Source: Oscillospiraceae bacterium (lineage in GTDB: Bacteria; Bacillota; Clostridia; Oscillospirales; Oscillospiraceae). From it: a stretch of 64,000 nucleotides of DNA. Both the position numbers and the translations under genes were made by a program. The stretch is taken from positions 1 through 64,000 of the forward strand of contig JAFUNI010000022.1 of assembly GCA_017482385.1 (NCBI GenBank), in the 5' to 3' direction. Of this stretch, positions 12,803 through 63,143 are shown one piece after another (the first letter of the stretch is position 1; each line of letters starts with the position of its first letter). The notes beneath the pieces are model-generated. The model searched no databases and had not been told where the DNA came from. It saw only the letters and a list, made by a program, of their open reading frames with translations.

Positions 12803-12815
12803 TACACAAATTTGC

Positions 12816-13793: not shown

Positions 13794-13797
13794 AAGT

Positions 13798-16357: not shown

Positions 16358-16376
16358 ATCTGACTCTTCCTTTCAA

Positions 16377-16428
16377 TGTTATAGTAACAATTCCCGGATA
16401 TTATATAACACAATCAGGTAAATTGCAA
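16377..16428 (-). promoter_or_regulatory. citDEF promoter with TGTTA/TAACA operator
   Basis: On the minus strand TTGCAA (16428-16423) and TATAAT (16405-16400) are spaced by 17 nt. Just downstream, 16377-16389 is a tight inverted repeat with TGTTA arms around 3 nt. A further TATAACA half-site overlaps the -10. The same half-sites occur at the glmS promoter. Confidence 0.65.
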
Positions 16429-16446
16429 TTCTTTTTACTTTTTTAT

Positions 16447-16474
16447 TTGCATATTTCCTTTCTTGTTGTATAAT
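16447..16474 (+). promoter_or_regulatory. Promoter for the folded RNA and citC operon
   Basis: TTGCAT (16447-16452) and TATAAT (16469-16474) are spaced by 16 nt. Transcription would begin near 16481, just before the folded region at 16486-16653. Confidence 0.65.
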
Positions 16475-16485
16475 GGTTTTATACA

Positions 16486-16653
16486 CAGCCTGACCAACAT
16501 AATCCAAACCCGTTCCTGCGACCTAGGGGGATGGATGAATGGGTCAGGCAAAGCATATGAAGCCGATGGGCTGGCGCCCATCAATGAAATATAATGACGC
16601 CTGAGCCAATCAGATGCACCCTTAGGCGGGTTCGGATTATATTGGGCAGGCTG
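16486..16653 (+). ncRNA. Strongly folded RNA or leader upstream of citC (family not identified)
   Basis: Positions 16486-16512 pair with 16627-16653 in a stem of about 27 positions with only three mismatches, closing a 168-nt element. Inside are hairpins at 16565-16582 (perfect 7 bp, loop TGGC) and 16598-16628 (8 bp with one G-U, competing slightly with the outer stem), and a weaker one at about 16515-16549. It has its own promoter and no open frame. It may be a riboswitch-like leader of citC or an independent structured RNA such as a raiA-motif or 6S-type RNA. I cannot assign a family by eye, and no B12 box is visible. Confidence 0.65.
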
Positions 16654-16672
16654 CAGAAAGGGGCGCAAGGCT

Positions 16673-40493: not shown

Positions 40494-41773
40494 AACAAAC
40501 GATTTGCAGTGTAGGCGATGCAATATTGCTGGAAAAGCTCCCGGATAACTACGATATTACGCCAATCAAAAGCATTGTGGAAAAAGCGGATGTACGGCTT
40601 TTCAATCTGGAAAATGTTCTGTCCGACAGAGCAATATATGGATCCACCTACTGCGGCGGAACTTGGCTTCTTGCCAAAGAGGACACGCTGGACAGTACCC
40701 TGCGCTTTGGGTTTAACGGCTGCTCCTTTGCAAATAATCACACTATGGACTTTTCCTATGACGGCCTTTTTGACACCCTTGCTGCCGCCAAAAAAAGAAA
40801 TCTGCCCATCTGCGGAGCAGGAAAGGATCTGGAAGAAGCTTCCGATTATACTGTGATCGAAACCGAAAATGGCAAATGCGCCTTGATCTCCATTTGCGCA
40901 ACCTTCAATGATGCTGCCCGTGCCGGTCATCCGTCAGATTACCTTTTGGGAAGACCCGGCTTAAATCCTCTGAGATTTTCTGTTGAATACCACATTACCC
41001 CAGAACACATGAAGGCACTCAAAGAAATATCCGCAGGCACTCATATTGACGGCAGAAGAAACCGCTCCCGTATGGGCGGTTATACCCCCATGCCCCCCGA
41101 GGGTTGTTTCGGCTTTGGTGAGTATAACTTCAGGGAAAGTGAAGTGGAAGGAAAGTTTTCGAAAGTAAACGCAGTGGATATGGCAAGAACGGAAAACACC
41201 ATCCAAAAAGCCCTTGCCGTGTGCGACAGTGTCATTGTGAATATCCATTCCCACGAAATCAAGCACGATACAGATGACGAGCCCGACGATTTTCTGATTG
41301 AGTTCTGCCGAAAATGCATCGATGCCGGTGCATCGGCCGTGGTGGGCACCGGAACCCATCAGCTGAAGGCCATTGAAATATATAAGAACAAGCCTATTTT
41401 CTACAGCCTTGGTAACTTTATTTTCCAAAGTGATCTGGTTTTCTGTATGCCGGATGATTTCAGAGAAAAATATAAATTGCCCTACGGTCTTACCGCAAAG
41501 CAGCAGGTTGCCGAACGGGCAAAGCGCGGTAACGGGGGACTTCACAATGATGTTAACAATTTCCGTTCTCTGATGCCCTTTATGACTTTTGAAAACGGCT
41601 GCGTTGAACGAATTGTTCTCTATCCGCTGCGGCTGGATATGCATACAGGTCTGCCTGCCCTCGCCGATCAAGCCGAAGCACAGATCATTTTCGATTATCT
41701 TTGTGACAGAAATAAGCAATTCGGTACAGTTATCAAAATAAATGACAGTGTAATAGAGGTGGAATTACAGTGA
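40490..41773 (+). CDS. CapA-family metallophosphatase-like protein
   Basis: The protein has 427 residues: SVGDAILLEKL at the N-terminus, FNLENVLSD, SFANNHTMDFSYDG, NIHSHEIKH, GTGTHQLKAIE and YSLGNFIFQSD follow the CapA/calcineurin-like order. No signal peptide. It is embedded between M20 and fumarase-like genes with overlapping ends, as the first CapA-like gene is in the citXG operon. Role in the module unknown. Confidence 0.78.
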   Translation: MKQTICSVGDAILLEKLPDNYDITPIKSIVEKADVRLFNLENVLSDRAIYGSTYCGGTWLLAKEDTLDSTLRFGFNGCSFANNHTMDFSYDGLFDTLAAAKKRNLPICGAGKDLEEASDYTVIETENGKCALISICATFNDAARAGHPSDYLLGRPGLNPLRFSVEYHITPEHMKALKEISAGTHIDGRRNRSRMGGYTPMPPEGCFGFGEYNFRESEVEGKFSKVNAVDMARTENTIQKALAVCDSVIVNIHSHEIKHDTDDEPDDFLIEFCRKCIDAGASAVVGTGTHQLKAIEIYKNKPIFYSLGNFIFQSDLVFCMPDDFREKYKLPYGLTAKQQVAERAKRGNGGLHNDVNNFRSLMPFMTFENGCVERIVLYPLRLDMHTGLPALADQAEAQIIFDYLCDRNKQFGTVIKINDSVIEVELQ

Positions 41774-42687
41774 TTAAAACAGAAGTTTATGAGCAAGCGC
41801 TTTTCGAAACCGTTAAGCGCGGCGCAACAGAAATATCTGCCGATGTGAAAGAGGCATTTGAAGCCGCAATTGCCCGGGAAAGCAATCCCGATGCGAAAAA
41901 AGGTCTGATTGCGACCTTGAACAGTATGGAAATGTCTGCAAAGCGGGAAAATCCCCTTTGTGTGGATACCGGCTGGCCGATTTTTTACTTTAAGGTAGGC
42001 AATCAGTGCGTTTTGGAAGGCGGCTTTGTGGAGCTGGAAAATGCCGCAAGACGCGCCGTTGCCAAGGCTACTGAGTTGGGCTATCTGCGTGCCACAATGA
42101 AGCATCCTTTGACCGGCTATGACCCGGGCAACAACATTGGTATGAACATCCCGGATTTTACATATCAGTTTGTGGACGGCGATTCTATTGAAATCTCCTA
42201 TGCCGCAAAGGGTGGCGGCAGTGAGTGCTTTGGCGGTACAAGGCATAGAATTGTGGCCTTTGCCGACGGCATTGCCGGAATCGAGAAATTTGTCATTGAC
42301 AGCTTTGTGGCATCTGCAAGAGCAGGTGCGGTCTGCCCGCCCTCGGTTTTGGGCATCGGCATTGGCGGCACTGCGAATGTGGCAGCCAATTTGGCAAAGG
42401 AAGCCGCTTGCCTGCGGACAGTTGGCTCCAAGCATCCCGATCCCATGTTCGCAAAAATCGAGGAGGATCTGTATAAGGCGCTTAACAGTTTGGGCGTGGG
42501 CATTTTGGGCGCCGGCGGTGACACTTCTGTGTTGGCAGTCAATGTGGAATATGCCTATACCCACATTGCCGGCATTGCCTGCGCTACCAGCACAAACTGT
42601 ATGGTTGCCCGTCGGGCATCGTCCAGAATTGATGCCAACGGCAAGGTTACGATTATGAGAAGTCCCAACTGGTTTGGTGACAGATAA
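41770..42687 (+). CDS. Fumarase/tartrate dehydratase alpha-subunit homologue (divergent)
   Basis: This 305-residue protein starts with GTG overlapping the upstream stop. The three cluster cysteines of class I hydro-lyases are present in LCVDTGW, AVCPPSVLGIGIGG and STNCMVARR. However, the first motif is CVDTG rather than CQDTG and the last is NCMVARR rather than NCHxxR; compare the canonical copy at 61713. It probably forms a 4Fe-4S hydro-lyase with the next gene, acting on an acid other than fumarate. Confidence 0.8.
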   Translation: MIKTEVYEQALFETVKRGATEISADVKEAFEAAIARESNPDAKKGLIATLNSMEMSAKRENPLCVDTGWPIFYFKVGNQCVLEGGFVELENAARRAVAKATELGYLRATMKHPLTGYDPGNNIGMNIPDFTYQFVDGDSIEISYAAKGGGSECFGGTRHRIVAFADGIAGIEKFVIDSFVASARAGAVCPPSVLGIGIGGTANVAANLAKEAACLRTVGSKHPDPMFAKIEEDLYKALNSLGVGILGAGGDTSVLAVNVEYAYTHIAGIACATSTNCMVARRASSRIDANGKVTIMRSPNWFGDR

Positions 42688-50951: not shown

Positions 50952-51506
50952 ATGATGCGTAAAAATATGCGATGGATCACGGAAACCGCTGTGATGCTGG
51001 CGCTGCTTATAGCCCTGCAGGCACTTACCAAACCTATGGGACAGCTGGTCACCGGCTCCTGCGTCAACGCAGTATTGGCTATTAGCGTACTGCTTGTGGG
51101 TATGGGCAGCGGTATTGCGGTAGCTCTCATCAGCCCGGTGTGCGCATTCCTGTTGGGGATCGCCCCTAATTTTGTGACGGTCCTGCCCATTATGGTGGGC
51201 AATGTATGCTTTGTTACATTGCTGCGCCTTATCTCCGGCAAGGCCCTTTGGCGGCAGCCGGTGGCATTGCTGGCAGCAGCGGGTGTAAAATTTGGGGTTC
51301 TGTATTTGTTGGTGGTGAAGGTCATTTGCGGCTTTGCATCCAACGCATTGCTGGGCAAGAAATTAGGAGAAATTGTGGTTTTGGCACCGCCTATGCTGAA
51401 GATGCTGCCCACGATGTTTGCCTGGCCGCAGCTTTTCACCGCTCTCATTGGCGGTGCTGTGGCGCTGCTCATTGCTGCTCCTCTGCGCAAAGCCTTGAAA
51501 AGATAG
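50952..51506 (+). CDS. ECF-type transporter substrate-binding (S) component-like membrane protein
   Basis: The protein has 184 residues (183 if the second ATG at 50955 is used, which has better spacing from AGGAGG). Five to six membrane segments and the arginine-rich N-terminus are typical of S components (MRKNMRWITETAVMLALLIAL). Energising A and T subunits are not in this window, so it would share a common ECF module. It lies directly upstream of the hdr operon but has its own terminator. The vitamin or metal it binds is not predictable. Confidence 0.75.
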   Translation: MMRKNMRWITETAVMLALLIALQALTKPMGQLVTGSCVNAVLAISVLLVGMGSGIAVALISPVCAFLLGIAPNFVTVLPIMVGNVCFVTLLRLISGKALWRQPVALLAAAGVKFGVLYLLVVKVICGFASNALLGKKLGEIVVLAPPMLKMLPTMFAWPQLFTALIGGAVALLIAAPLRKALKR

Positions 51507-51537
51507 AAAAGCAGTGGCTGAGCCACTGCTTTTTCTT
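51507..51537 (+). terminator. Terminator after the ECF S component gene
   Basis: A perfect 12-bp stem (AAAAGCAGTGGC/GCCACTGCTTTT) with a TGA loop and T tail. Confidence 0.9.
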
Positions 51538-51580: not shown

Positions 51581-51609
51581 TTGCATTTTTCGGCGCTTTA
51601 TGATACAAT
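51581..51609 (+). promoter_or_regulatory. Promoter of the hdr-flx-tfr operon
   Basis: TTGCAT (51581-51586) and TACAAT (51604-51609) are spaced by 17 nt, about 70 nt upstream of hdrB. Confidence 0.75.
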
Positions 51610-51628
51610 TTTATCGATTGAGCAAAAG

Positions 51629-51645
51629 TGCATAAAGTTTATGCA
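51629..51645. promoter_or_regulatory. 17-bp palindrome in the hdr operon leader
   Basis: TGCATAAA-G-TTTATGCA is a perfect 8-bp inverted repeat about 20 nt downstream of the -10. This is a typical place for a repressor to bind. It does not match a Rex or ArgR consensus by eye. Confidence 0.55.
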
Positions 51646-51677
51646 AAAACCCTATGGAAAGATACGAGGTGTGTGGT

Positions 51678-52463
51678 ATGAAATACAGTTATTTTCCCGG
51701 TTGCACTCTGCGAAACAAAGCCAAGGATTTGGACGACTACGCAAGAGCCTGCGCCGAAAAATTAGGCTTTTCTTTAGAGGAGCTGACTGATTGGCAGTGC
51801 TGCGGCGGTGTATACCCCCTGGGCGCTGACGAGATCGCCAGCAAGCTGCCCTCTGTCCGGGCGCTGAATGCCGCCAAAGAAAAGGAGCAGGATCTGGTAG
51901 CGGTTTGCTCTGCCTGCTACCACGTGCTCAAGCGTGTCAATGACGATATGGCAAATGTGGCTGACATCCAGACCCGCGCCAACAACTATATGCAGCTGGA
52001 TACGCCCTATACCGGTGAAACCAAGGTACTGCACTATTTGGAAGTTCTGCGGGATGTGGTTGGCTTTGACAAGCTGAAAGAAGCGGTGGTCAATCCCCTC
52101 ACCGGTCGCAAGGTAGGCGCTTACTACGGATGCCTTCTGCTGCGGCCCAGTAATGTGATGGCCTTTGACGATCCTGAGAACCCCACCATTTTGGAGGACT
52201 TTATCCGGGCCCTGGGCGCAGAGCCTGTGATGTACCCCTACCGCAACGAGTGCTGCGGCGGCTATATTTCTATTAAAGAACAGGATCAAGCTGCCGGTCT
52301 TTGCAAGAAGATCGTAAGCAGCGCTGAAGGCTTCCAGGCCGATTGCCTGGTAACTGCCTGCCCGCTGTGCAAGTACAACCTCAGCAAGAACAGCACACTC
52401 CCCATCGTTTATTTTACCGAGCTTTTGGCAGAAGCCTTGGGCATTAAGGAGGCGCAGGAATGA
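51678..52463 (+). CDS. hdrB: Heterodisulfide reductase subunit B-like (two CCG domains)
   Basis: The ATG at 51678 follows GAGGT; 261 residues. Both cysteine-rich CCG domains are complete: YFPGCTLR ... WQCCGGVY ... CSACYH, and YYGCLLLR ... NECCGGYI ... CPLCKY. In HdrB these bind the two noncubane 4Fe-4S clusters that reduce a disulfide-type acceptor. First gene of a 12-gene operon; the stop overlaps hdrC in ATGA. Confidence 0.9.
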   Translation: MKYSYFPGCTLRNKAKDLDDYARACAEKLGFSLEELTDWQCCGGVYPLGADEIASKLPSVRALNAAKEKEQDLVAVCSACYHVLKRVNDDMANVADIQTRANNYMQLDTPYTGETKVLHYLEVLRDVVGFDKLKEAVVNPLTGRKVGAYYGCLLLRPSNVMAFDDPENPTILEDFIRALGAEPVMYPYRNECCGGYISIKEQDQAAGLCKKIVSSAEGFQADCLVTACPLCKYNLSKNSTLPIVYFTELLAEALGIKEAQE

Positions 52464-52837
52464 ACAAAGTAGAAGAAATCAAGCTGATCAGCGGCGTCAA
52501 TCCTCTCAAATGTATGAAGTGCGGCAAATGCTCCGCATCCTGCCCTTCCTTCAATGAGATGGACATTAAGCCCCATCAATTTGTTACTTATGTAATTAAC
52601 GATGATGTAGAGGCCTTGGCCCAGTCCAAATCCGCATGGAAGTGCCTGAGCTGCTTTGCCTGCATCGAGCGCTGCCCCCGGGATGTGAAGCCCGGCAAGC
52701 TGATCGATGCCGCCCGGCAGATCCTCATCCGGCAGCGTGACCAGGAGGGTCTGTCCCCCGACGAGATCCCGGCGCTTTTGGACGAAGAGATCCCCCAGCA
52801 ACTTCTGATGAGTGCATTCCGCAAATACAGGAGGTAA
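52460..52837 (+). CDS. hdrC: Heterodisulfide reductase subunit C-like 4Fe-4S protein
   Basis: This 125-residue protein has two cubane-cluster motifs, CMKCGKCSASCP (about 18-29) and CLSCFACIERCP (about 62-73). This is the compact HdrC form that wires HdrA to HdrB. The C-terminus is helical with a DEIPALLDEE acidic patch. Confidence 0.9.
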   Translation: MNKVEEIKLISGVNPLKCMKCGKCSASCPSFNEMDIKPHQFVTYVINDDVEALAQSKSAWKCLSCFACIERCPRDVKPGKLIDAARQILIRQRDQEGLSPDEIPALLDEEIPQQLLMSAFRKYRR

Positions 52838-52840
52838 GAG

Positions 52841-54829
52841 ATGCGTAGAATTGGTGTATTTGTTTGCCATTGCGGCAGTAACATTGCTGCAACGGTAGAT
52901 GTTAAGAAAGTCGTGGAGATGGCTCTGAAAGAGCAGGGCGTTGTCCACGCGGAAGATTACCCCTATATGTGCTCTGAGGCAGGTCAAGTCAAGATCGCAG
53001 AAGCCATCAAGGAACATAAGCTTGAAGGCATCGTGGTCTGCTCCTGCTCTCCCCGTATGCACGAGGCCACTTTCCGCAAGTGCGCTGAAAGAAACGGTCT
53101 GAACCCCTACCTGGTAGAAATCGCCAACATCCGTGAGCACTGCTCCTGGATCCACAAGGATATGGCCGAGGCCACGGAAAAGGCTGTCATTTTGATGCGG
53201 GCTGCTGTTGCCAAGGTGCATTTGAACGCGCCCCTGCAGGCCGGCGAAAGCGCCGTTACCAAAAAGGCGCTGGTCATCGGCGGCGGCATTGCCGGTATTC
53301 AGACCGCAATCGACATTGCCGATGCCGGCTACAAGGTGGACATCGTGGAGAAAGAGCCTTCCATCGGCGGCCGTATGAGCCAGCTGGACAAGACCTTCCC
53401 CACCCTGGACTGCTCCGCCTGTATCCTCACCCCCAAGATGGTGGAAGCTGCCGCTCACGAGAACATCACCATACATACCTGGAGCGAAGTGGAAAAGGTT
53501 TCCGGCTTCGTGGGCAATTTCACTGTGGATATCCGCAAGAAGGCTCGCTATGTAAATATGGATAAGTGTACCGGCTGCGGCGTTTGCCAGGAGAAATGCC
53601 CCTCCAAGAAGCCTCTCAACGAGTTCAACCGGGGCTTAAACACCCGCAGCGCCATTTATACACCCTTTGCACAGGCCATTCCCAATGTGCCTGTGATCGA
53701 CGCCAACGCCTGTATCAAGCTGAACACCGGTAAGTGCGGTATCTGCGAGAAGTTCTGCCAGGTGGGCGCTATCGACTACACCCAGAAGGATGAGATCATC
53801 ACCGAACAGTACGGCGCTATCGTGGTTGCTACCGGCTTTGATACCATCAAGCTGGATAAGTACGGCGAATATGCCTACAACGAAAGCAAGGACGTGATCA
53901 CTTCCTTAGAGCTGGAGCGTATTATGAATGCTGCCGGCCCCACCAAGGGTCACTTGGAGCGCCTGTCTGACGGCAAAGCTCCCAAGGAGATCGTGTTCAT
54001 TCAGTGTGTGGGCAGCCGCTGCTCCGACGACCGGGGCAAGCCCTACTGCTCCAAGATCTGCTGTATGTACACCGCCAAGCACGCAATGCTCATCCGGGAT
54101 AAGTACCCCGATACCAATGTAACTGTGTTCTACATTGATGTCCGTACCCCCGGTAAGAACTTTGATGAGTTCTACCGCCGGGCTGTGGAAGACTACGGCG
54201 TCAACTATGTTAAGGGCCAGGTAGGCAAGGTTGCGCCTCAGCCCGACGGCAGCCTTATGGTTCACGGCGTTGATCTTCTGGAAAACAAGCAGATCGTAAA
54301 GAAAGCGGATATGGTGGTTTTGGCAACCGCCATCGAGCCTAACCCCGATGTGCGTAAGATCGCCACCATGCTCACCGCTTCTATTGACACCAACAACTTC
54401 CTCACCGAGGCCCACCCCAAGCTGCGCCCCGTGGAATCCCCCACAGCGGGTGTGTTCCTGTCCGGCGTTTGCCAGGGTCCCAAGGACATTCCCGAGACCG
54501 TAGCCCAGGCCGGCGCTGCGGCTGTGAAGGTCATCGGCTTGCTTGCCAAGGATAAGCTGAAGACCAATCCCTGCACCGCCAAGGCCGATGAGCTGCGCTG
54601 CAACGGCTGCAGCCAGTGCGCCAATGTGTGTCCCTACGGTGCTATTTCCTACGAAACCAAGCAGGTCAACGACCACGGCATCCGGGAGGATCGCCGCATT
54701 GCGGTGGTCAATTCCGCGCTGTGCCAGGGCTGCGGTGCTTGTACCGTAACCTGTCCCAGCGGCGCTATGGACCTGCAGGGCTTCTCTAACAGACAAATCA
54801 TTGCGGAGGTGGATGCAATATGCCGGTAA
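52841..54829 (+). CDS. hdrA: Heterodisulfide reductase subunit A-like flavoprotein (electron-bifurcating candidate)
   Basis: This 662-residue protein starts with FVCHCGSNIA (HdrA N-domain). The FAD motif VIGGGIAGIQ is at 145-154, CSAC at 191-194 and inserted-ferredoxin motifs lie at 243-253 and 299-306. Two C-terminal ferredoxin clusters are at 587-597 (CNGCSQCANVC) and 628-638 (CQGCGACTVTC). HdrA carries the flavin at which electron bifurcation occurs in Hdr complexes. Its presence with B, C and FlxD-like subunits supports a soluble bifurcating complex. Confidence 0.92.
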   Translation: MRRIGVFVCHCGSNIAATVDVKKVVEMALKEQGVVHAEDYPYMCSEAGQVKIAEAIKEHKLEGIVVCSCSPRMHEATFRKCAERNGLNPYLVEIANIREHCSWIHKDMAEATEKAVILMRAAVAKVHLNAPLQAGESAVTKKALVIGGGIAGIQTAIDIADAGYKVDIVEKEPSIGGRMSQLDKTFPTLDCSACILTPKMVEAAAHENITIHTWSEVEKVSGFVGNFTVDIRKKARYVNMDKCTGCGVCQEKCPSKKPLNEFNRGLNTRSAIYTPFAQAIPNVPVIDANACIKLNTGKCGICEKFCQVGAIDYTQKDEIITEQYGAIVVATGFDTIKLDKYGEYAYNESKDVITSLELERIMNAAGPTKGHLERLSDGKAPKEIVFIQCVGSRCSDDRGKPYCSKICCMYTAKHAMLIRDKYPDTNVTVFYIDVRTPGKNFDEFYRRAVEDYGVNYVKGQVGKVAPQPDGSLMVHGVDLLENKQIVKKADMVVLATAIEPNPDVRKIATMLTASIDTNNFLTEAHPKLRPVESPTAGVFLSGVCQGPKDIPETVAQAGAAAVKVIGLLAKDKLKTNPCTAKADELRCNGCSQCANVCPYGAISYETKQVNDHGIREDRRIAVVNSALCQGCGACTVTCPSGAMDLQGFSNRQIIAEVDAICR

Positions 54830-55257
54830 CTGAAAATTGGAAACCCAAAATCGTTGCCTTCTGCTGCAACTGGTGCAGCTACGCCGGCGCTGACCTGGCC
54901 GGCTCCAGCAGACTGGCTTATCCTGCCGATGTGAAGATCATCAAAGTGCCTTGCTCCTGCCGGGTGAACCCCATGTTCATCCTCCGGGCCTTTGAAAAGG
55001 GCGCTGACGGCGTGATCCTCTGCGGTTGCCACCCCGGCGACTGCCACTACTCCACCGGCAACTACTATGCCCGCCGCCGTATGACCCTTCTGTTCTCTAT
55101 GCTTGACTATCTGGGCGTGGAAGAGGGCCGCACCCGTGTGGAATGGGTGTCTGCTGCTGAGGGCGTAAAGTTCTCCGAAACCATGAACAGCTTTGTAGAA
55201 AAAGTTCGCGCCCTTGGCCCGAATGTGAGATTGGGGGATTTGCGATGCAAGAATTGA
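54820..55257 (+). CDS. MvhD/FlxD-like iron-sulfur electron-transfer subunit
   Basis: The protein has 145 residues. CNWCSYAGADLAG, PCSCRVN and CGCHPGDCHY are the conserved 2Fe-2S motifs of MvhD, which docks input electron modules onto HdrA. The start overlaps the HdrA stop by 10 bp, and the stop overlaps the next gene. It delivers electrons from the FlxA-like NAD(P)H module (family knowledge). Confidence 0.9.
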   Translation: MPVTENWKPKIVAFCCNWCSYAGADLAGSSRLAYPADVKIIKVPCSCRVNPMFILRAFEKGADGVILCGCHPGDCHYSTGNYYARRRMTLLFSMLDYLGVEEGRTRVEWVSAAEGVKFSETMNSFVEKVRALGPNVRLGDLRCKN

Positions 55258-56204
55258 TCAAGAAAGCCAAAGCGCTTTTGGAAAGCGGCGAAGTAGCCCG
55301 GGTTTTGGGCTGGAAGAAGGGCGAATACGAATATGACCCCGAACCTGCTTTCTTTGAAACTGCCGAGAGCCTGAAGGATTTCGTCTATAACGGCTTCTGC
55401 GGCGCTAACCTGAGCAAGTACATGATCGAAGCAGGCAAGAAAGAGGGCAAGACCCTGGTCTTCCTCAAGCCCTGCGACAGCTACAGCTACAATCAGCTCC
55501 TGCGGGAGCACCGGGTTGACCGGGAGAAGGCCTACATCGTAGGTGTAGGCTGTAAAGGCAAGCTGGCTGTTTCCAAGATTCCTTTCGAGGGTATCTTGAA
55601 TATCTCCGGCTCGGAGTATCCCGATGCAGCGGAAACCCTCACCGTGGAAACCCTCTATGGCACCCAAACCATTGCCTATAAGGACGCAATGCTGGAGCGC
55701 TGCCATGTGTGCAAGGGCAAGGAGCACGTTGTTTATGACGAGCTGATCGGTGAATCTGCTGACACTGTGGATGCCGACCGTTTTGCAGAGGTGGAACGCA
55801 TTGAGGCTATGAGCCCCGAAGAGAAGTTCGCTTTCTTCCAGAGTGAGCTTTCAAAGTGCATCCGCTGCAATGCTTGCCGGAATGTATGTCCTGCCTGCTC
55901 CTGCCGGAAGTGCGTGTTTGACAGCACTGCCTTTGACTCTGAGCAGAAGGCCAACACCACCTCTTTTGAAGAGAAGATGTTCCACATCATCCGCGCCTTC
56001 CATGTGGCAGGCCGTTGCACCGATTGCGGCGAATGCAGCCGTGTCTGCCCTCAGGGCATTCCTCTGCATCTGTTCAACCGGAAATTCATTAAGGATATCA
56101 ACGCCCTGTACGGCGAGTACCAGGCAGGAAGCGACTTGGAGAGCAAAGCACCTCTGACCAACTTCACTACCGAAGATGCTGAGCCGGGCGTAGGCAGGGG
56201 GTAA
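55245..56204 (+). CDS. 4Fe-4S dicluster electron-transfer protein (FlxB/FlxC-like)
   Basis: The protein has 319 residues. The N-terminal domain is shared with F420-hydrogenase beta-type and Flx subunits (FLKPCDSYSYNQLL). The C-terminal half carries CIRCNACRNVCPACSCRKC and CTDCGECSRVCP. It overlaps the MvhD-like gene by 13 bp. The closest known context is FlxABCD, where such proteins bridge the NAD(P)H subunit and FlxD. I cannot tell FlxB from FlxC by eye. Confidence 0.75.
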   Translation: MQELIKKAKALLESGEVARVLGWKKGEYEYDPEPAFFETAESLKDFVYNGFCGANLSKYMIEAGKKEGKTLVFLKPCDSYSYNQLLREHRVDREKAYIVGVGCKGKLAVSKIPFEGILNISGSEYPDAAETLTVETLYGTQTIAYKDAMLERCHVCKGKEHVVYDELIGESADTVDADRFAEVERIEAMSPEEKFAFFQSELSKCIRCNACRNVCPACSCRKCVFDSTAFDSEQKANTTSFEEKMFHIIRAFHVAGRCTDCGECSRVCPQGIPLHLFNRKFIKDINALYGEYQAGSDLESKAPLTNFTTEDAEPGVGRG

Positions 56205-56207
56205 ATT

Positions 56208-57233
56208 ATGTATAAGATCAAAAAAGAAAACTTAAATGCCCTCTATGCAGCCATTGCTGCTGTAAACGATCTGTTCCTGCCGGTAAAGGCAGCCGGTCAG
56301 ACTAATTTTGGTCTGTATACCGAAAACGCTGAAGTAGACATTGACACCTTGAAGACCGTCAAGTCCGGCAAGGATATTTTCTTCCCCCAGAGCGAGACCC
56401 TTTACCAGGTCCGCCGGGAAGAAGGCAAGTTTGCCATTGCAGGGGAAGCACCCCGGCAGACCCCCTTTGTTGTGTTTGGCATCCGTGGCTGTGATGTAAA
56501 AGCTTTGGCTGTGCTGGACAAGGTATTCCTCTCCGACCCCATCGACAGCTACTATGCCGCCCGCCGGCAGATGGGCACCATCGTGTCCCTGGCCTGCGGC
56601 AAGCCCGCCACTTCCTGCTTCTGCAAGGTGTTCGGTGTGGATTGCGCAGAACCCGAAGGCGATGTGGTGACCTGGCTGGTTGGCGAGGAGCTGTACTGGC
56701 AGCCCAAGACCAAGAAGGGTGAGCAGCTCACCGAGAAGTTGACCTCTTTACTGGAAAAGGCTGACGAGGCTGCTGTTGAAGCAGAGCAGGCCGCCATCCG
56801 CGCTATCGTGGAAAAGCTGCCCTACGCCAATCTGTCCTTGGATAAGTGGGGCGCTGCCGCCGCTGACGCAAACTTCGATTCTCCCATTTGGGAAGAGCTG
56901 TATAAGCCCTGTCTGGCCTGCGGCACCTGCACCTTTGTGTGCCCCACCTGCCAGTGCTACGACATTAAGGACTATACGACAGGTAACGGCATTCAGCGCT
57001 ATCGCTGCTGGGACAGCTGTATGTACTCCGATTTCACCATGATGGCTCACGGCAACAACCGCACCAGCCAAATGCAGCGGTTCCGCCAGCGGTTTATGCA
57101 CAAGCTGGCTTATTTCCCCGCCAACAATCAGGGTATGTTCTCCTGTGTTGGCTGCGGCCGGTGCGTTGACAAATGCCCCAGCCACTTAAATATCGTGAAG
57201 GTCATCAAGGCCTTTGAAAAGGAGGGTGTATGA
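56208..57233 (+). CDS. 4Fe-4S dicluster protein, AsrA/FlxC-like
   Basis: This 341-residue protein has the AsrA-type N-terminal half (FFPQSETLYQVRR, VVFGIRGCDVKAL). Cluster motifs CLACGTCTFVCPTCQC (about 234) and CVGCGRCVDKCP (about 311) follow, with YRCWDSCMYSDF between them. In anaerobic sulfite reductase the equivalent subunit passes electrons from the flavin subunit. Here the partner is the FlxA-like protein, whose start overlaps its stop. Confidence 0.8.
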   Translation: MYKIKKENLNALYAAIAAVNDLFLPVKAAGQTNFGLYTENAEVDIDTLKTVKSGKDIFFPQSETLYQVRREEGKFAIAGEAPRQTPFVVFGIRGCDVKALAVLDKVFLSDPIDSYYAARRQMGTIVSLACGKPATSCFCKVFGVDCAEPEGDVVTWLVGEELYWQPKTKKGEQLTEKLTSLLEKADEAAVEAEQAAIRAIVEKLPYANLSLDKWGAAAADANFDSPIWEELYKPCLACGTCTFVCPTCQCYDIKDYTTGNGIQRYRCWDSCMYSDFTMMAHGNNRTSQMQRFRQRFMHKLAYFPANNQGMFSCVGCGRCVDKCPSHLNIVKVIKAFEKEGV

Positions 57234-58099
57234 TGCAGGAGCCTATGCACGAATGTAAACACAATCCCGGCTTTATGCGGGACACCCTGGTCCCCCAGGT
57301 GGGTATCATCACCGATATCCGCACCGAAACTCCGGATGTAAAGACCTTCCGGGTGGAAGCTCCCAATGGCGGCAAGCTCTTTGAGCATATGCCCGGTCAG
57401 TGCGCTATGGTCTGCGCGCCCGGTATTGGTGAGGCGATGTTCTCCATCACCTCCTCCCCCACCAACAAGCTTTATCAGGAATTTTCCATCAAGCGCTGCG
57501 GTGTTCTCACCGAGCATCTGCACTCTTTGAAGGCCGGTGACGAGATCCTGGTCCGGGGCCCCTACGGCAACAATTTCCCCGTGGAAACCGAGCTGAAGGG
57601 TCAGAACCTTTTGTTCATTGCCGGCGGTATCGCCCTGGCGCCTCTGCGCAGTGTGATCAACTACTGCCTGGACAACCGGGAAAACTACGGCGACATTGAC
57701 ATCGTCTACGGTTCCCGCTCCGCTGATGATCTGGTGCAGCGCAAGGAGATCGAAGAGGTTTGGTCCAAGATCCCCGGTGTGAATGTACATCTGACCATCG
57801 ACCGGCCCCAGGAGGGTTGGGACGGCCATGTGGGCTTTGTTCCCTCCTATCTGCAGGAGCTGGCCTTTGACACCAACCGCACCGCTATCCTCTGCGGACC
57901 TCCCATTATGATCAAGTTCTGTCTGCAGGGCCTGAAAGAAATGGGCTTTGCTATGGAGCAGGTCTACACCACCCTGGAGCTTCGGATGAAGTGCGGCGTG
58001 GGCAAATGCGGCCGCTGCAACATCGGCACCAAGTATGTCTGCAAGGACGGCCCCGTGTTCCGCTTCGACCAAGTCGATGCACTGCCTAACGAATATTAA
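57230..58099 (+). CDS. FAD/NAD(P)-binding oxidoreductase subunit, FlxA/AsrB-like
   Basis: The protein has 289 residues. A ferredoxin-reductase FAD domain (about 15-105: MFSITSSPTNK, GDEILVRGPYGNNF) precedes the NAD(P) domain (LLFIAGGIALAPLRS). The C-terminus is a 2Fe-2S motif, CGVGKCGRCNIGTKYVC. It should oxidise NAD(P)H and feed HdrA through the FlxD-like subunit, or run in reverse. It starts in an ATGA overlap. Confidence 0.85.
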   Translation: MMQEPMHECKHNPGFMRDTLVPQVGIITDIRTETPDVKTFRVEAPNGGKLFEHMPGQCAMVCAPGIGEAMFSITSSPTNKLYQEFSIKRCGVLTEHLHSLKAGDEILVRGPYGNNFPVETELKGQNLLFIAGGIALAPLRSVINYCLDNRENYGDIDIVYGSRSADDLVQRKEIEEVWSKIPGVNVHLTIDRPQEGWDGHVGFVPSYLQELAFDTNRTAILCGPPIMIKFCLQGLKEMGFAMEQVYTTLELRMKCGVGKCGRCNIGTKYVCKDGPVFRFDQVDALPNEY

Positions 58100-58112
58100 G
58101 GAGAATGAACCA

Positions 58113-58787
58113 ATGGAAAATATGGTAAATGTTTATTTCTTTGGTAAGAAATATTCCGTTCCCGGCGATCTGACCATTATGACCGCTATGGAATATGCAG
58201 GCTACACCCTGACCCGGGGCTGCGGCTGCCGTCACGGCTTCTGCGGTGCCTGCGCCACGATCTACCGCATCAAGGGTAAGAATGAGCTGAAAACCTGCCT
58301 GGCTTGCCAGACCCAGGTGCAGGAGGGCATGTATGTGGCATCCATCCCCTTCTTCCCCACTGACAAGCGGACCTATGATATTAACGAGATCAAGGCCGAT
58401 CAGCGGGTAATGATGGAACTGTATCCCGAGATTTACGCCTGCATCGGCTGTAATGCCTGCACCAAGGCCTGTACCCAGAGCCTGAATGTTATGCAGTACA
58501 TTGCCTATGCACAGCGCGGCGAGCTGGAAAAGTGCGCTGAGGAGTCCTTCGACTGCGTCAGCTGCGGCTGCTGCTCCGTCCGCTGCCCTGCCGGTATCAG
58601 CCATCCTATGGTTGGTCTGCTGGCAAGACGCCTTACCGGTAAGTACATTGCTCCCGAGACCGAGCATCTGAAAAACAGAGTTGCTGAGATCAACTCCGGC
58701 GCTTACGATGAGCTGATCGAGGCAATTATGCAGAAGCCCATCACCGAGATGCAAGAGCTTTACAACAACCGGGACATTGAAAAGTAA
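58113..58787 (+). CDS. Fumarate reductase iron-sulfur subunit, TfrB-like (without CCG domain)
   Basis: AAGGAG lies 9 nt before the ATG; 224 residues. The N-terminal 100 residues are a plant-type 2Fe-2S domain (CGCRHGFCGACATIY with a later CLAC). Residues about 110-160 hold two 4Fe-4S motifs, CIGCNACTKACTQS and CVSCGCCSVRCP. Methanogen thiol:fumarate reductase TfrB also has a HdrB-like CCG part; here that part is the separate hdrB gene. No membrane anchor subunit is encoded. Confidence 0.82.
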   Translation: MENMVNVYFFGKKYSVPGDLTIMTAMEYAGYTLTRGCGCRHGFCGACATIYRIKGKNELKTCLACQTQVQEGMYVASIPFFPTDKRTYDINEIKADQRVMMELYPEIYACIGCNACTKACTQSLNVMQYIAYAQRGELEKCAEESFDCVSCGCCSVRCPAGISHPMVGLLARRLTGKYIAPETEHLKNRVAEINSGAYDELIEAIMQKPITEMQELYNNRDIEK

Positions 58788-58799
58788 GGAGGGTACAGG

Positions 58800-60398
58800 A
58801 TGTTTACAGAGACTATGATGGAATCCATCAAGAAGGTGGAAGCAACCCGTGCCGCTCGTATGGGCACAGAACCCCGCCGTATGACGGCTGAGGAAAAGTC
58901 CGAACTGCTGAAGGCCTACCATCCCGACTACCGGCCCGAAGGCTTTAAGGAAATTCAAATCGGACCCAACAAGGGTCAGAAAGCTCCCGTGGAGCTGACC
59001 GATCTCATCCACTCCAACAGCCGTCTGCTGGGCGAGAACATCGACCTTTCTAAGATCGACTACGATGTGGACGTACTGGTCATTGGCGGCGGCGGCGCAG
59101 GCTCTTCTGCTGCCATCGAAGCCCACGAGGCCGGCGCCAATGTTATGATTGTTACCAAGCTGCGTATCGGCGATGCCAATACCATGATGGCTGAGGGCGG
59201 CATCCAGGCTGCTGACAAGGAGAACGACTCCCCCGTGCAGCACTATCTGGACGCTTTCGGCGGCGGTCACTTTGCTGCCCGCCCCGAGCTGCTGCGGCGC
59301 TTGGTTATGGAAGCTCCCGATGCCATCCGCTGGCTGAATGAGCTGGGCGTTATGTTCGACAAGGACGAGGACGGCCGTATGGTCACCACCCACGGCGGCG
59401 GTACTTCCCGCAAGCGTATGCACGCCTGCAAGGACTACTCCGGTGCGGAGATCATGCGTACTGTCCGTGATGAAGTGCTCAACCGTCATATCCCCGTGGT
59501 AGAGTTCACCTCTGCTGTGGAACTGATCAAGGACGACAAGGGCCAGGTGGCCGGCGCTGTTCTTCTGAACATGGAAACCGGCGATTATATGGTGGCAAAG
59601 GCAAAGACTGTCATCATCGCCACCGGCGGTGCAGGCAGACTTCACTATCAGAACTTCCCCACCTCCAACCACTACGGCGCTACCGCTGACGGTCTGATTT
59701 TGGGCTACCGCGCCGGCGCTCCCCTGCTGTACCAGGATACCATTCAGTATCACCCCACCGGTGTTGCTTATCCCAGCCAGATCTTCGGTGCGTTGGTTAC
59801 CGAGAAGGTCCGTTCCATCGGTGCTATGCTGGTCAACAAGGACGGCGAGGCTTATGCCCATCCTCTGGAAACAAGAGACGTTTCCGCATCTGCCATCATT
59901 CGTGAATGCGCCAACGGCAAGGGTGTTGAAACGCCTCTGGGCAGCGGCGTTTGGCTGGATACGCCCATGATCGAGCAGATTCACGGTGAGGGTACTATTG
60001 AAAAGAGAATCCCCGCAATGCTGCGTATGTACTTAAACTACGGCATTGATATGCGGAAAGTTCCCATCCTGGTATACCCCACTCTCCACTATCAGAACGG
60101 TGGTTTGGAGATCGGTGGCGACGGCTTCACCAAGGCCATCCCCAACCTGCTGGTTGCCGGCGAGGCTGTGGGCGGCATTCACGGCCGTAACCGTCTGATG
60201 GGTAACTCCCTGCTGGACATCATCGTCTTTGGCCGTAACGCCGGTAAGGCTGCTGCTGCCAAGGCTAAGGAAGTGAAGCTGGGTGCTATGAACCTGGATC
60301 ACATCACCGCTTATGCTGAAGAGCTGAAGAAGGCCGGTATTACACAGGAGGGTGTTTCTCCCCTGCTGCTGCCTAAGTACGCCCGCCACGAAAGATAA
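58800..60398 (+). CDS. Fumarate reductase/succinate dehydrogenase-type flavoprotein, TfrA-like
   Basis: This 532-residue protein has the FAD motif VIGGGGAGSS at 94-103, after an unusually long N-terminal extension of about 88 residues. Catalytic landmarks of the family are present: QYHPTGV, EKVRSIGAMLVN (Arg of the EGxRGEGG region), LHYQNGG and the C-terminal GEAVGGIHGRNRLMGNSL. The usual long C-terminal domain is shortened. It reduces fumarate to succinate in the cytosol, taking electrons from the TfrB-like subunit. AGGAGG precedes the ATG. Confidence 0.85.
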   Translation: MFTETMMESIKKVEATRAARMGTEPRRMTAEEKSELLKAYHPDYRPEGFKEIQIGPNKGQKAPVELTDLIHSNSRLLGENIDLSKIDYDVDVLVIGGGGAGSSAAIEAHEAGANVMIVTKLRIGDANTMMAEGGIQAADKENDSPVQHYLDAFGGGHFAARPELLRRLVMEAPDAIRWLNELGVMFDKDEDGRMVTTHGGGTSRKRMHACKDYSGAEIMRTVRDEVLNRHIPVVEFTSAVELIKDDKGQVAGAVLLNMETGDYMVAKAKTVIIATGGAGRLHYQNFPTSNHYGATADGLILGYRAGAPLLYQDTIQYHPTGVAYPSQIFGALVTEKVRSIGAMLVNKDGEAYAHPLETRDVSASAIIRECANGKGVETPLGSGVWLDTPMIEQIHGEGTIEKRIPAMLRMYLNYGIDMRKVPILVYPTLHYQNGGLEIGGDGFTKAIPNLLVAGEAVGGIHGRNRLMGNSLLDIIVFGRNAGKAAAAKAKEVKLGAMNLDHITAYAEELKKAGITQEGVSPLLLPKYARHER

Positions 60399-60415
60399 GG
60401 AGATGTAAAAACAAA

Positions 60416-61693
60416 ATGGATTTTATATCTAAGCTGATCAGCCTCGGTCAGACCCCCGTGGTGCTGCTGAGCGTGTTTGTTATCTGCGCAGTGGGCTATG
60501 CCATCGGCAGAATCAAAGTCAAGGGCTTAAATCTGGGCACTGCTGGCGTGTTTCTGTTTGCCCTGCTGTTTGGTTATCTGTGCACCTTGCCGGGACTGCA
60601 GAATGTGCCTGTTTTGGGCAAGTTCTTCATGGCAGATGCGTCCGATGCCAAAATCTCCAGCTTTAAGTTTATTTCCAACATCGGACTGGTGCTGTTTGTG
60701 TCATCTGTTGGCTGCATTGCCGGACCTAAATTTTTCCGGAATCTGAAGACAAACGCTAAGTCCTATGTGCCTATGGGTGCGCTGATCATCGTGATGGGCG
60801 CACTGGTTACCGTGGTATTTGCACTGATCCCCGGCATTGGCTCTGCCTATGCTACCGGCATTTTGTCCGGTGCACTTACGTCCACCCCCGCCTTCTCTGC
60901 TGCCCAGGGTGCTGTGGAAGCAATGGCACCGGAGCAGTTGGGACTGGTATCCCTCGGTCACGCAGTCGCCTATCCCTTTGGTGTGATCGGCGTGGTGCTG
61001 TTTGTGCAGATCATGCCCCGGCTTGTGAAGGCCGACATGGCAAAAGAGCGTCTTCTGATCGGCTATACCGCAGAAAATCCGGAGCTGAATCTCAGCAAAA
61101 AGAAACTGGTCGAAATCGACGAATTTGGTTTCTTTGGCTTTGGTCTGTCTGTTGTGCTTGGTATTTTGCTGGGCGCGATCAAGATTCCTCTGAGCGGTGA
61201 AGGCTTTGATGGGCCTTGCTTCTCTCTGGGGCTGACCGGCGGTCCTCTGCTGATGAGCCTGATTTTGGCACACTTCGGTCACATTGGCCCTGTGAGCCTG
61301 AAGGTGGATGAGCACACCCTGAAAAGCTTCCGGGAATTTGGCCTTATGCTGTTCCTTGTGGGCGCAGGCGTAGAAGGCGGCGTGGAGCTGGTGGAGCAGA
61401 TCGCTGCATCTGAGTACGGCATTATGCTGGTAGTCTATGGCTTTATTGCCGGCGCAGTGATGACTGTCATCCCCATGATCACAGGCTACCTGTTTGCCAA
61501 GAAGATCTGCAAGCTGCCCCTGCTTAACAACCTGGGTTCTATTACCGGTGGTATGACCTCCACTCCTGCGCTGGGTACGCTGATCGGTGTTGCCGGCACA
61601 GATGATGTGGCAGGTGCATATGCGTCCACCTATCCCATTGCGCTGGTACTGGTGGTACTGGCATCTCAGCTCATCAACTCCTTTATGCTGTAA
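60416..61693 (+). CDS. Aspartate:alanine exchanger (AspT/SucE) family transporter, compact form
   Basis: This 425-residue protein has 10-12 membrane segments in two homologous halves, each ending in the family motif (GALTSTPAFSAA; TGGMTSTPALG). AspT exchanges aspartate for alanine, and SucE of Corynebacterium exports succinate. The usual hydrophilic middle region with two RCK_C (TrkA-C) domains is missing; only about 30 polar residues link the halves. Its place between fumarate reductase and fumarase argues for succinate, fumarate or aspartate transport. Confidence 0.82.
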   Translation: MDFISKLISLGQTPVVLLSVFVICAVGYAIGRIKVKGLNLGTAGVFLFALLFGYLCTLPGLQNVPVLGKFFMADASDAKISSFKFISNIGLVLFVSSVGCIAGPKFFRNLKTNAKSYVPMGALIIVMGALVTVVFALIPGIGSAYATGILSGALTSTPAFSAAQGAVEAMAPEQLGLVSLGHAVAYPFGVIGVVLFVQIMPRLVKADMAKERLLIGYTAENPELNLSKKKLVEIDEFGFFGFGLSVVLGILLGAIKIPLSGEGFDGPCFSLGLTGGPLLMSLILAHFGHIGPVSLKVDEHTLKSFREFGLMLFLVGAGVEGGVELVEQIAASEYGIMLVVYGFIAGAVMTVIPMITGYLFAKKICKLPLLNNLGSITGGMTSTPALGTLIGVAGTDDVAGAYASTYPIALVLVVLASQLINSFML

Positions 61694-61712
61694 CTGACAG
61701 GAGGAATAAACA

Positions 61713-62555
61713 ATGCGTGAAATTCAAGTATCTGCCATCACCGATGTGGTGGAGCGGCTTTGCATTGAAGCCAACACCCATCTGCCCGGTGATGTAAAAT
61801 GCGCCATTGAGACCTGCCGCGCCTGCGAGGACGGTGCGATCGCCCAGGGCGTTTTGGACAAGATCATCGAAAACTACAACATCGCTGACAGCGAGAATGT
61901 TCCCATTTGCCAGGACACCGGCATGGCCTGCGTGTTCCTGGAAATCGGCCAAGATGTACATTTGGTTGGCGGCGACCTGCGGGAAGCCGTGGACGAGGGC
62001 GTGCGCCGCGGCTACGGCAAGGGCTATCTGCGCAAATCCGTTGTGGCTGACCCTGTCCGCCGTGGCAACACCGGCGACAACACCCCCGCAATGCTCTACA
62101 CCGAGATCGTTCCCGGTGAGAATGTGAAGATCACCGTTGGCCCCAAGGGCTTCGGCAGCGAGAATATGAGCGCCATCCGGATGTTCAAGCCCTCTGCCGG
62201 TCTGCAGGGCATCAAGGACTTTATCCTGGAGACTGTGGAATTGGCCGGCCCCAACCCCTGTCCTCCCATGGTGGTGGGCGTTGGTATCGGCGGTACCTTC
62301 GACAAGGCTGCGCTCCTTGCCAAGAAAGCCATTATGCGTCCCCTGGACACCCACAACCCCGACCCCTTCTATGCAGAACTGGAAGAGGAAATGCTGGAGA
62401 GAATCAATGCGCTGGGTATCGGACCTCAGGGCTTCGGCGGCAAGACCACTGCCATCGGTCTGAACATTGAGACTATGCCCACCCACATTGCAGGTATGCC
62501 CTGTGCGATCAACATCAACTGCCATGTGACCCGGCATAAGACGGAGGTGCTGTAA
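61713..62555 (+). CDS. Class I fumarate hydratase alpha subunit
   Basis: The protein has 280 residues. The three 4Fe-4S cysteines lie in ICQDTGMA, PNPCPPMVVGVGIGG and NINCHVTRH, with GFGSENMS before the second. It hydrates fumarate to malate or the reverse; related enzymes hydrate mesaconate to citramalate. It could therefore also supply the missing step of the methylaspartate pathway. Followed after one base by the beta subunit. Confidence 0.9.
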   Translation: MREIQVSAITDVVERLCIEANTHLPGDVKCAIETCRACEDGAIAQGVLDKIIENYNIADSENVPICQDTGMACVFLEIGQDVHLVGGDLREAVDEGVRRGYGKGYLRKSVVADPVRRGNTGDNTPAMLYTEIVPGENVKITVGPKGFGSENMSAIRMFKPSAGLQGIKDFILETVELAGPNPCPPMVVGVGIGGTFDKAALLAKKAIMRPLDTHNPDPFYAELEEEMLERINALGIGPQGFGGKTTAIGLNIETMPTHIAGMPCAININCHVTRHKTEVL

Positions 62556-62556
62556 A

Positions 62557-63108
62557 ATGGAAAAGCATATTACCCTTCCTCTCACCGAAGAGATCGCCAA
62601 GACTTTGAAGGCTGGCGACACCGTGTATCTCACCGGTACTATTTACACCTCCCGTGACGCAGGTCACAAGCGGATGTGCGAATCCCTGGCAAAGGGCGAG
62701 GAACTGCCCTTTGACCCCAAGGATGCCACCATCTACTATGTTGGTCCTACCCCCGCAAAGCCCGGTCAGGTCATCGGTTCTGCCGGTCCTACCACCTCCG
62801 GTCGTATGGATGCATACGCGCCCACTATGATGAGCGTTGGCGCCCGGGGCATGATCGGCAAGGGTGCAAGACTGCCCGAGGTCGTGGAGGCCATGAAGAA
62901 GTACACCGGTGTGTACTTTGGCGCTATCGGCGGCGCAGGCGCACTGCTTGCCAAGTGCATTAAGAAGTGCGAGCTGATCGCCTATGAAGATTTGGGCGCC
63001 GAGGCTCTGCGCAAGCTGTACGTTGAGGATATGCCCCTGTTCGTCATCATTGACTGCGAAGGCAACAACCTCTACGAAACCGGTCGTGCTGAATACTTAA
63101 AGAAGTAA
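62557..63108 (+). CDS. Class I fumarate hydratase beta subunit
   Basis: The protein has 183 residues. The substrate motif GPTTSGRMDAYAP, the IGKGA loop and GAIGGAGALLAKCI are intact, as in fumarase/tartrate dehydratase C-terminal domains. It completes the enzyme with the preceding gene. Last gene of the hdr-flx-tfr operon. Confidence 0.92.
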   Translation: MEKHITLPLTEEIAKTLKAGDTVYLTGTIYTSRDAGHKRMCESLAKGEELPFDPKDATIYYVGPTPAKPGQVIGSAGPTTSGRMDAYAPTMMSVGARGMIGKGARLPEVVEAMKKYTGVYFGAIGGAGALLAKCIKKCELIAYEDLGAEALRKLYVEDMPLFVIIDCEGNNLYETGRAEYLKK

Positions 63109-63109
63109 C

Positions 63110-63143
63110 AAAAAATCACCCTGCGATGCAGGGTGATTTTTTT
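63110..63143 (+). terminator. Terminator of the hdr-flx-tfr-fum operon
   Basis: A 15-bp stem (AATCACCCTGC/GCAGGGTGATT core with an A/T extension) and GAT loop, followed by T. It also serves the convergent gene on the minus strand. Confidence 0.9.

Follow-up and report, generated by a model that had tools for sequence, protein, structure and literature searches.

Fumarate reduction is normally coupled to energy conservation through membranes and quinones. Here we describe an operon of twelve genes, all on the + strand at positions 51678-63108 of a 64,000-nucleotide stretch of DNA (the window: contig JAFUNI010000022.1 of assembly GCA_017482385.1, from an Oscillospiraceae bacterium), in the order hdrBCA-flxDCBA-tfrBA, an AspT/YidE-type transporter gene and the genes of a two-subunit class I fumarase. 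We consider it reasonably probable that its products form a cytosolic, quinone-independent, electron-bifurcating NAD(P)H:ferredoxin, fumarate oxidoreductase of Hdr-Flx type, in which HdrB would pass electrons to TfrB.

Described relatives of the operon

A very similar operon is in print: the "succinate operon" of Pseudoclostridium thermosuccinogenes, with a fumarase, Flx-Hdr (CDQ83_RS03360-30), a fumarate reductase (CDQ83_RS03325-20) and a potential succinate transporter (PMC7282089). As described there, ferredoxin coupling was assumed, expression was about 4-fold up at low CO2 (not significantly for all subunits), and a 2019 preprint (Koendjbiharie and van Kranenburg) is cited for the same idea. 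Both operons unite Flx-Hdr, a two-gene fumarate reductase and a fumarase, a likeness of gene content as described, but in P. thermosuccinogenes the fumarase stands at the opposite end. In tubeworm and vent symbionts and in Thioflavicoccus mobilis, flxABCD-hdrABC is interspersed with tfrAB and korABCD, and direct transfer to TfrAB has been proposed (PMC6315080, PMC11636981). Unlike the window's operon, that set is described as one for carbon fixation by the reverse tricarboxylic acid cycle, with OGOR genes in between, and not as a fermentation operon. The first-pass annotation, made from the sequence alone, knew of no described complex with this exact set, a statement that these papers (PMC7282089, PMC6315080) overturn. 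The idea of a bifurcating fumarate reductase is already published (2019-2020) for other bacteria; biochemical proof was not found in the literature seen.

Other relatives share parts of the set. The seven subunits of FlxABCD-HdrABC from Desulfovibrio vulgaris are all encoded together in our operon; the Desulfovibrio complex, studied by Ramos et al. in 2015, is said to be without TfrAB. Methanogens have a TfrAB with a similar TfrA-like flavoprotein, and the archaeal TfrB model spans parts that here are TfrB, HdrB and, weakly, HdrC. The donors of the methanogen enzyme are CoM-SH and CoB-SH. It differs from the operon in having one longer TfrB and no HdrA or Flx, whereas TfrB of the operon has 224 residues and no CCG domain and its TfrA scores below the equivalog cut-off. 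The E-type succinate:quinone reductase or 8-methylmenaquinol:fumarate reductase SdhABE includes a CCG subunit with ten cysteines, and its SdhB holds a second [4Fe-4S] cluster (PMC2680327). The operon's HdrB resembles that subunit in its ten cysteines (142 bits with SdhE), but SdhABE, as described, is membrane- and quinone-linked and has no HdrA or Flx. In the Cloacimonadota, Tfr has been reported together with Mvh-Hdr (PMC8542988).

For Blautia luti, methyl-viologen:fumarate reductase activity was measured, frdAB was highly transcribed, and an NADH-dependent fumarate reductase enters the ATP balance (PMC12773636); the words "Flx" and "heterodisulfide" are absent from the main text of that paper. 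We infer that its frdAB are the operon's tfrBA. Among open-literature papers there was none on a "bifurcating fumarate reductase" and, by title and start of abstract, none among those listed on the operon in gut Lachnospiraceae or Oscillospiraceae, subscription papers and preprints lying outside the search. The parts consulted of PMC8578096, PMC10504309, PMC6776011, PMC9751042, PMC12613782 and PMC12578642 contain nothing on it. New here are the spread of the operon in these gut families, including Blautia luti (whose published energetics omit it), the swapping of electron donors, and a cultured test organism.

The nine-gene core and its conservation

Proteins were assigned to families by Pfam and NCBIfam matches. 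In most cases the NCBIfam score does not reach the curated cut-off of the named model and therefore shows kinship, not identity. The first nine genes, all of which are where the first-pass annotation placed them along with the three that follow, are these:

51678..52463, +, hdrB: two CCG domains (PF02754 twice) whose ten cysteines form the pattern of a pair of non-cubane [4Fe-4S] clusters
52460..52837, +, hdrC: dicluster ferredoxin-like subunit (Fer4_8, HdrC models)
52841..54829, +, hdrA: subunit at whose FAD bifurcation is presumed to occur, ending in a ferredoxin domain (808 bits with the HdrA2 model, against a cut-off of 1100)
54820..55257, +, flxD (MvhD): link between Flx and HdrA (PF02662, 184 bits; matches the MvhD part of HdrA2)
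55245..56204, +, flxC: dicluster protein akin to FdhB of Hdr-formate dehydrogenase complexes (7bkb_E, E 2e-29)
56208..57233, +, flxB: AsrA/sulfhydrogenase beta-like dicluster protein (ShyB 190 bits, AsrA 148 bits, both below cut-offs; 9nez_B, E 4e-58)
57230..58099, +, flxA: subunit for electron entry, binding FAD and NAD(P) and carrying a [2Fe-2S] at its C-terminus (PF00175, PF00970, PF10418; HydG/AsrB models; alignment)
58113..58787, +, tfrB: a [2Fe-2S] domain at the N-terminus, a dicluster domain at the C-terminus and no CCG domain (Fer2_4, Fer4_7; invariant cysteines)
58800..60398, +, tfrA: flavoprotein of fumarate reductase type, extended at its N-terminus by about 88 residues (best named model TfrA)

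Adjacent genes of the operon overlap by 4-13 bases or are separated by 1-19; 51678 and 58113 are the likeliest starts of hdrB and tfrB because homologues begin there. By sequence, the donor side is an ordinary FlxABCD, and together with HdrABC and TfrAB it makes up the core. What the first-pass annotation listed as "two 4Fe-4S dicluster proteins" are indeed present, but they are FlxC and FlxB, members of this ordinary set together with the MvhD-like and AsrB-like subunits, and not separate components.

The hdrBCA-flxDCBA-tfrBA core is one conserved unit. Among 98 genomes of relatives (99 with the window's own; a limited number of candidates scored per genome, at most 12 in one of the searches), TfrA at 68% identity or more occurs in 24 and HdrA in 23, 22 of them full length and one (G014) ending after residue 518. 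All 23 HdrA genomes have TfrA and 23 of the 24 TfrA genomes have HdrA, the exception (G049) having tfrA at a contig start. The gene order is intact in 20 of the 23 loci compared, the other three being broken by contig ends; in the twenty-fourth relative (G033), outside this comparison, tfrA is divided over two contigs. Conserved order, which had been proposed as a check, was likewise found in every named locus with at least 8.6 kb upstream (52 of 52; 50 by strict string, since in L070 and L099 one gene is matched in two pieces). These named loci are the best 80 of at least 559 confirmed stretches, hence the nearer ones. Four of the remaining 28, with less room, also hold the nine genes, and the 24 that are cut by contig ends show those genes for which there is room. 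The nearest named relatives among these 80 are metagenome-assembled genomes that carry the labels Oscillospiraceae, Clostridia or Lachnospiraceae, and most come from the hindgut of ruminants; the top TfrA identity among those listed is 99%, in such a genome from roe deer cecum. Pairwise divergences of hdrB, hdrA, flxA, tfrB and tfrA are concordant (r 0.89-0.96, 76 loci). In L135 (Sporofaciens musculi) the tfrA match runs through stops, with a short stretch in another frame, so that a frameshift or sequencing error is likely.

Absence of TfrA/B from most otherwise conserved operons had been named as an outcome that would speak against the proposal. Instead, across the class (393 genomes, own included; E 1e-80 or better), 54 of the 57 genomes with HdrA have TfrA, and HdrA is present in 54 of 54 TfrA genomes. 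This two-way co-occurrence bears out the link between a soluble Hdr-Flx module and a TfrAB-type fumarate reductase. The two genes lie within 9 kb on one contig in 49 of the 54, and the other five tfrA contigs end inside the cluster. The three genomes with HdrA only are G117 (48% identity) and G129 and G155 (43-44%), the latter two with flxDCBA-like genes and no TfrA. In L146 and L147, flxDCBA-like genes adjoin several HdrA-like stretches, with no HdrB or TfrA match; the Hdr-Flx set there probably has another acceptor.

Predicted electron path

The path that we propose would begin at FlxA, whose domains are those of an FAD- and NAD(P)-binding protein and whose FAD would be reduced by NAD(P)H. 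From there, FlxB, FlxC and the FlxD cluster would carry electrons to the FAD of HdrA, as suggested by the relatives that FlxC, FlxD and HdrA have in complexes of Hdr with hydrogenase and with formate dehydrogenase; the nearest solved chains to FlxC are FdhB of Hdr-formate dehydrogenase (7bkb, 9t1s, 8rvu), with the dicluster part as the best stretch. At the HdrA FAD the electron pair would be split, one electron going to ferredoxin through the C-terminal ferredoxin domain and the other through HdrC and HdrB. HdrA aligns with solved HdrA end to end (residues 3-660, E 1e-204), which we counted for the ferredoxin branch. HdrB would serve as a bridge to TfrB, with no disulfide substrate. The clusters of TfrB would feed the FAD of TfrA, where fumarate would be reduced to succinate, so that the predicted net reaction is 2 NADH + fumarate + oxidised ferredoxin -> 2 NAD+ + succinate + reduced ferredoxin. 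From textbook potentials it amounts to roughly -40 kJ/mol under standard conditions. Fumarase, where present, would make fumarate from malate.

HdrB can be aligned with solved HdrB and scores 150 bits with the HdrB model and 142 bits with that of the SdhE-type anchor (CCG, menaquinol:fumarate reductase), both under cut-off. Its ten cluster cysteines, from C10 to C232 in alignment numbering, are invariant in 17 of 17 aligned sequences, and both non-cubane cluster motifs are thus kept as in FlxABCD-HdrABC. TfrA reaches 336.8 bits with the TfrA equivalog model (cut-off 718); beyond the extension it consists of the SdhA/FrdA region, and a separate C-terminal SdhA domain is not matched. Residues H318, E335, R338, R359, H430 and R465, likewise invariant (17 of 17), align with residues of solved SdhA/FrdA whose roles we take to be catalytic. 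The position of the FAD histidine is occupied by asparagine (N127, 17 of 17). A histidine for covalent FAD is a trait of the membrane-bound fumarate reductases and succinate dehydrogenases, so FAD in TfrA is probably bound non-covalently. L-aspartate oxidase was rejected as an identity for TfrA: the best NadB model gives 257 bits vs 337 for TfrA (both below cut-off), and in relatives the homologues of 31-34% identity lie in loci without the other operon genes (8 of 8).

TfrB combines an N-terminal [2Fe-2S] pattern with two CxxCxxCxxxC motifs, and RnfC is nearest to its dicluster part among solved chains; TfrB probably holds two [4Fe-4S] clusters, as does E-type SdhB in the account of PMC2680327. 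The archaeal TfrB model (PRK06259) matches three separate proteins of the operon: TfrB over model positions 19-87 (E 5.6e-7), HdrB over 260-465 (E 2.4e-9) and HdrC over 132-219 (E 8.7e-5). As judged from these matches, a single archaeal polypeptide joins at least the TfrB-like and HdrB-like parts that are split into separate proteins here; the HdrC portion may reflect generic dicluster similarity.

The physiological setting was compared in ten genomes, namely the window's own (2.39 Mb, 35 contigs; 95% complete, the only genome of the set with a completeness figure), Blautia luti, B. schinkii, B. glucerasea, Mordavella massiliensis, Dorea 5-2, Lachnospiraceae 3-2, Porcincola intestinalis, C. 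asparagiforme and Sporofaciens musculi. Quinol was rejected as the donor, since UbiA was found in none of the ten (14 of 14 controls were positive) and the operon has no membrane anchor gene. Disulfide reduction linked to DsrC, the protein that interacts with the Desulfovibrio complex (PMC10504309), was also rejected: unlike Desulfovibrio, all ten genomes lack a DsrC match (PF04358; E. coli was the sole positive among the 14 controls). All ten contain [FeFe]-hydrogenase, the window's own genome having one, and an Rnf/Nqr-type PF03116 match is present in 9 of 9 named relatives tested. No second TfrA match occurs in the window's genome at E 0.001. Blautia luti MSK.16.34 (L119) has the full operon and Rnf, neither UbiA nor DsrC, and no close TfrA match other than the operon's own.

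TfrBA with other partners, and competing readings

In a TfrA search of 398 genomes of the phylum (HdrA itself was not searched there), the scores split: 39 matches of at least 700 bits lie in 38 genomes besides the window's own, and the other nine listed (E 1e-70 or better) score less than 296 bits, their alignments starting as late as profile position 81-89. The comparison took in 32 of these 39 loci and left out seven, every one a member of family f151; three other f151 loci are among the 32. Five of the 32 have hdrA, hdrB, hdrC and flxDCBA beside tfrBA, with tfrBA first in four of them, and locus L144 of the class sample is alike. Four others, with no flxB or flxA, combine hdrCB, hdrA and flxD with a gene for an additional large HdrA-like protein and a weak match to FlxC; in L159, L161, L163 and L170, where HdrA, FlxD and TfrBA are also found and FlxB and FlxA are missing, the second HdrA-like protein has about 1090 residues (1489 in L170). 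A further four consist of hdrC-hdrB-tfrB-tfrA only, without hdrA or flx. In L166, L172 and L186, genes of TRAP-transporter type precede hdrCB-tfrBA and fumarase genes (DctM by scan in L166, by cluster in the other two), a layout that suggests uptake of C4-dicarboxylates as electron acceptors.

Several observations weigh against direct, bifurcating coupling. The gene tfrA is without adjacent hdrB or hdrA in 18 of the 32 loci, and one more (L168) is cut by a contig end; TfrBA has no need of Hdr-Flx. Among the 18, L175 has an HdrC-like gene (40%) about 2 kb before tfrB, L176 (the second copy in G578) has no tfrB, and L169 and L184 have weak HdrA-like matches (38% and 29%) 7-10 kb upstream. Both non-cubane motifs of HdrB are intact, as if the disulfide site were still selected. 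The HdrC match to PRK06259 is weak, and FlxC does better over 130-203 (E 6.6e-6). As reported in PMC11636981, tfrAB of the vent symbionts is an exception to the co-expression of the hdr-flx cluster. The class searches scored at most three candidates per genome. Finally, the window's own genome lacks PF03116 and PF02508, and thus an Rnf/Nqr match, and a use for extra reduced ferredoxin is not obvious there; in this organism hydrogen formation or biosynthesis would have to consume the ferredoxin.

The phylum loci also show what TfrBA may work with. Among the 18 without adjacent hdrB or hdrA, L160 and L179 have the gene of a NapC-type cytochrome before tfrB. In L180 a b-type cytochrome that includes a ferredoxin domain follows tfrA, and L181 shows the same weak match. 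Malic enzyme was found near tfrBA in the scanned locus L165 and belongs to the gene neighbourhood of the eight loci in its cluster, in six of them between fumB and tfrB; pyruvate carboxylase was found in L156, with L157 and L158 alike. The company of fumarase, malic enzyme, pyruvate carboxylase and varied donors supports fumarate as the substrate and a role for TfrB as the place at which various donors dock. Within the phylum, the donor of TfrBA is exchangeable. It is an evenly balanced proposition that TfrBA serves as a fumarate reductase head of general use, to which exchangeable electron adapters are fitted (Hdr-Flx, HdrCB alone, the HdrA-rich set without FlxBA, a NapC-type cytochrome, a b-type cytochrome, or none recognised), that HdrB in the Hdr-Flx version is an electron bridge instead of a disulfide reductase, and that many gut Lachnospiraceae and Oscillospiraceae, including Blautia luti, gain ferredoxin, and via Rnf ATP, from succinate formation without quinones.

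The strongest competitor to the bifurcating complex retains its subunits and dispenses with the ferredoxin branch, Hdr-Flx acting as a soluble diaphorase that gives NADH electrons to TfrBA. The lack of Rnf in the window's genome fits this, as does the NADH-dependent fumarate reductase assumed for the ATP balance in PMC12773636. Nevertheless, we regard it as unlikely: full operons retain the whole of HdrA, including the ferredoxin domain, where a plain diaphorase needs less, and Rnf is present in all nine named relatives tested.

Less plausible still is a two-step thiol route, in which Hdr-Flx would reduce a disulfide at HdrB and TfrAB would then oxidise the thiols, like CoM-SH and CoB-SH in methanogens. 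Archaeal Tfr, to go by the title of Heim et al. (1998), is reportedly a thiol:fumarate reductase, which we counted for this route along with the invariance of both HdrB CCG motifs. However, the operon's TfrB lacks the CCG domain, presumably the thiol-oxidising part of archaeal TfrB, and model positions 260-465 match HdrB; moreover, DsrC is absent from all ten genomes and no thiol-carrier gene was seen in the operon. Direct wiring of HdrB to TfrB is preferred because the archaeal TfrB model covers both proteins and the hdrCB-tfrBA loci repeat that set, and also because HdrB scores nearly as well with SdhE as with HdrB (142 vs 150 bits), in a family that pairs such a subunit with an SdhAB enzyme (PMC2680327).

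That TfrBA is an independent fumarate reductase, merely sharing an operon with an Hdr-Flx complex of another acceptor, is very improbable: the 18 phylum loci without adjacent hdrB or hdrA and the hdrA-flxDCBA sets without TfrA in G129 and G155 would suit it, but the two-way co-occurrence in the class, the concordant divergence, the hdrCB-tfrBA loci and the archaeal TfrB model that matches both TfrB and HdrB all speak against it.

Accessory genes, surroundings and consequences

The remaining features of the operon and its boundaries are as follows:

51506..51534: hairpin ending the preceding transcription unit (13 pairs, 6 GC, T-rich tail)
60416..61693, +, AspT/YidE-type transporter, accessory, a possible C4-dicarboxylate exporter (PF06826 twice)
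61713..62555, +, class I fumarase alpha part, accessory (PF05681, E 5e-117)
62557..63108, +, class I fumarase beta part, accessory (PF05683, E 5e-59)
63110..63142: terminal hairpin with T run (15 pairs)

The first hairpin sets the operon apart from the previous gene and the second, a strong one, closes it, the latter being the terminator that the first-pass annotation had placed there. The promoter that it had also claimed fared worse: a scan gave no sigma-70-like site upstream of hdrB (three sites in the whole region vs 6.2 expected), and the by-eye candidate TTGCAT-17-TACAAT at 51581-51609, at the very start of the range given in the first-pass annotation, has 8 of 12 consensus bases and is not counted as a promoter. 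A viral origin was rejected, a viral-contig scan giving four pattern-matching stretches, none of them related.

The inclusion of fumarase and exporter in the unit did not hold either. Downstream sequence of at least 4.5 kb is available for 62 named loci; 50 of them have the fumarase and 36 have such a transporter, in one case on the opposite strand. Fumarase divergence tracks the core partly (r 0.86, rho 0.55; 47 loci) and that of the transporter barely (r 0.26, rho 0.12; 35 loci). With this patchy presence and the mismatch in divergence, the conserved unit is the nine genes, and fumarase and especially the transporter are accessories. No replacement dicarboxylate transporter was recognised among eight downstream proteins in seven named loci.

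Elsewhere in the window, a second fumarase-alpha-like protein of 305 residues (41770-42687) scores 226 bits as fumarate hydratase (cut-off 276) and above the cut-off for the tartrate/fumarate alpha domain; it might be part of a mesaconase. At positions 8151-21124, genes of methylaspartate-route glutamate fermentation (methylaspartate ammonia-lyase, mutase E, MutL) lie next to genes of citrate-lyase type (citF, citE-like, cit ligase, CitX/CitG), which perhaps encode a citramalate lyase. Within positions 1-7800, a + strand open reading frame of 2528 codons (121-7707), without a Pfam match, looks like the shadow of an opposite, minus-strand open frame of 2596 codons that reaches the left edge and has a signal-peptide-like start, as for a large secreted protein.

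If the bifurcating reading is true, common gut succinate producers would conserve energy in the cytosol. The published balance for Blautia luti gives 3.05-3.15 ATP per glucose (PMC12773636); with the factors used there (2 H+ per two electrons, 3.6 H+ per ATP), it would lack up to about 0.56 ATP per succinate.

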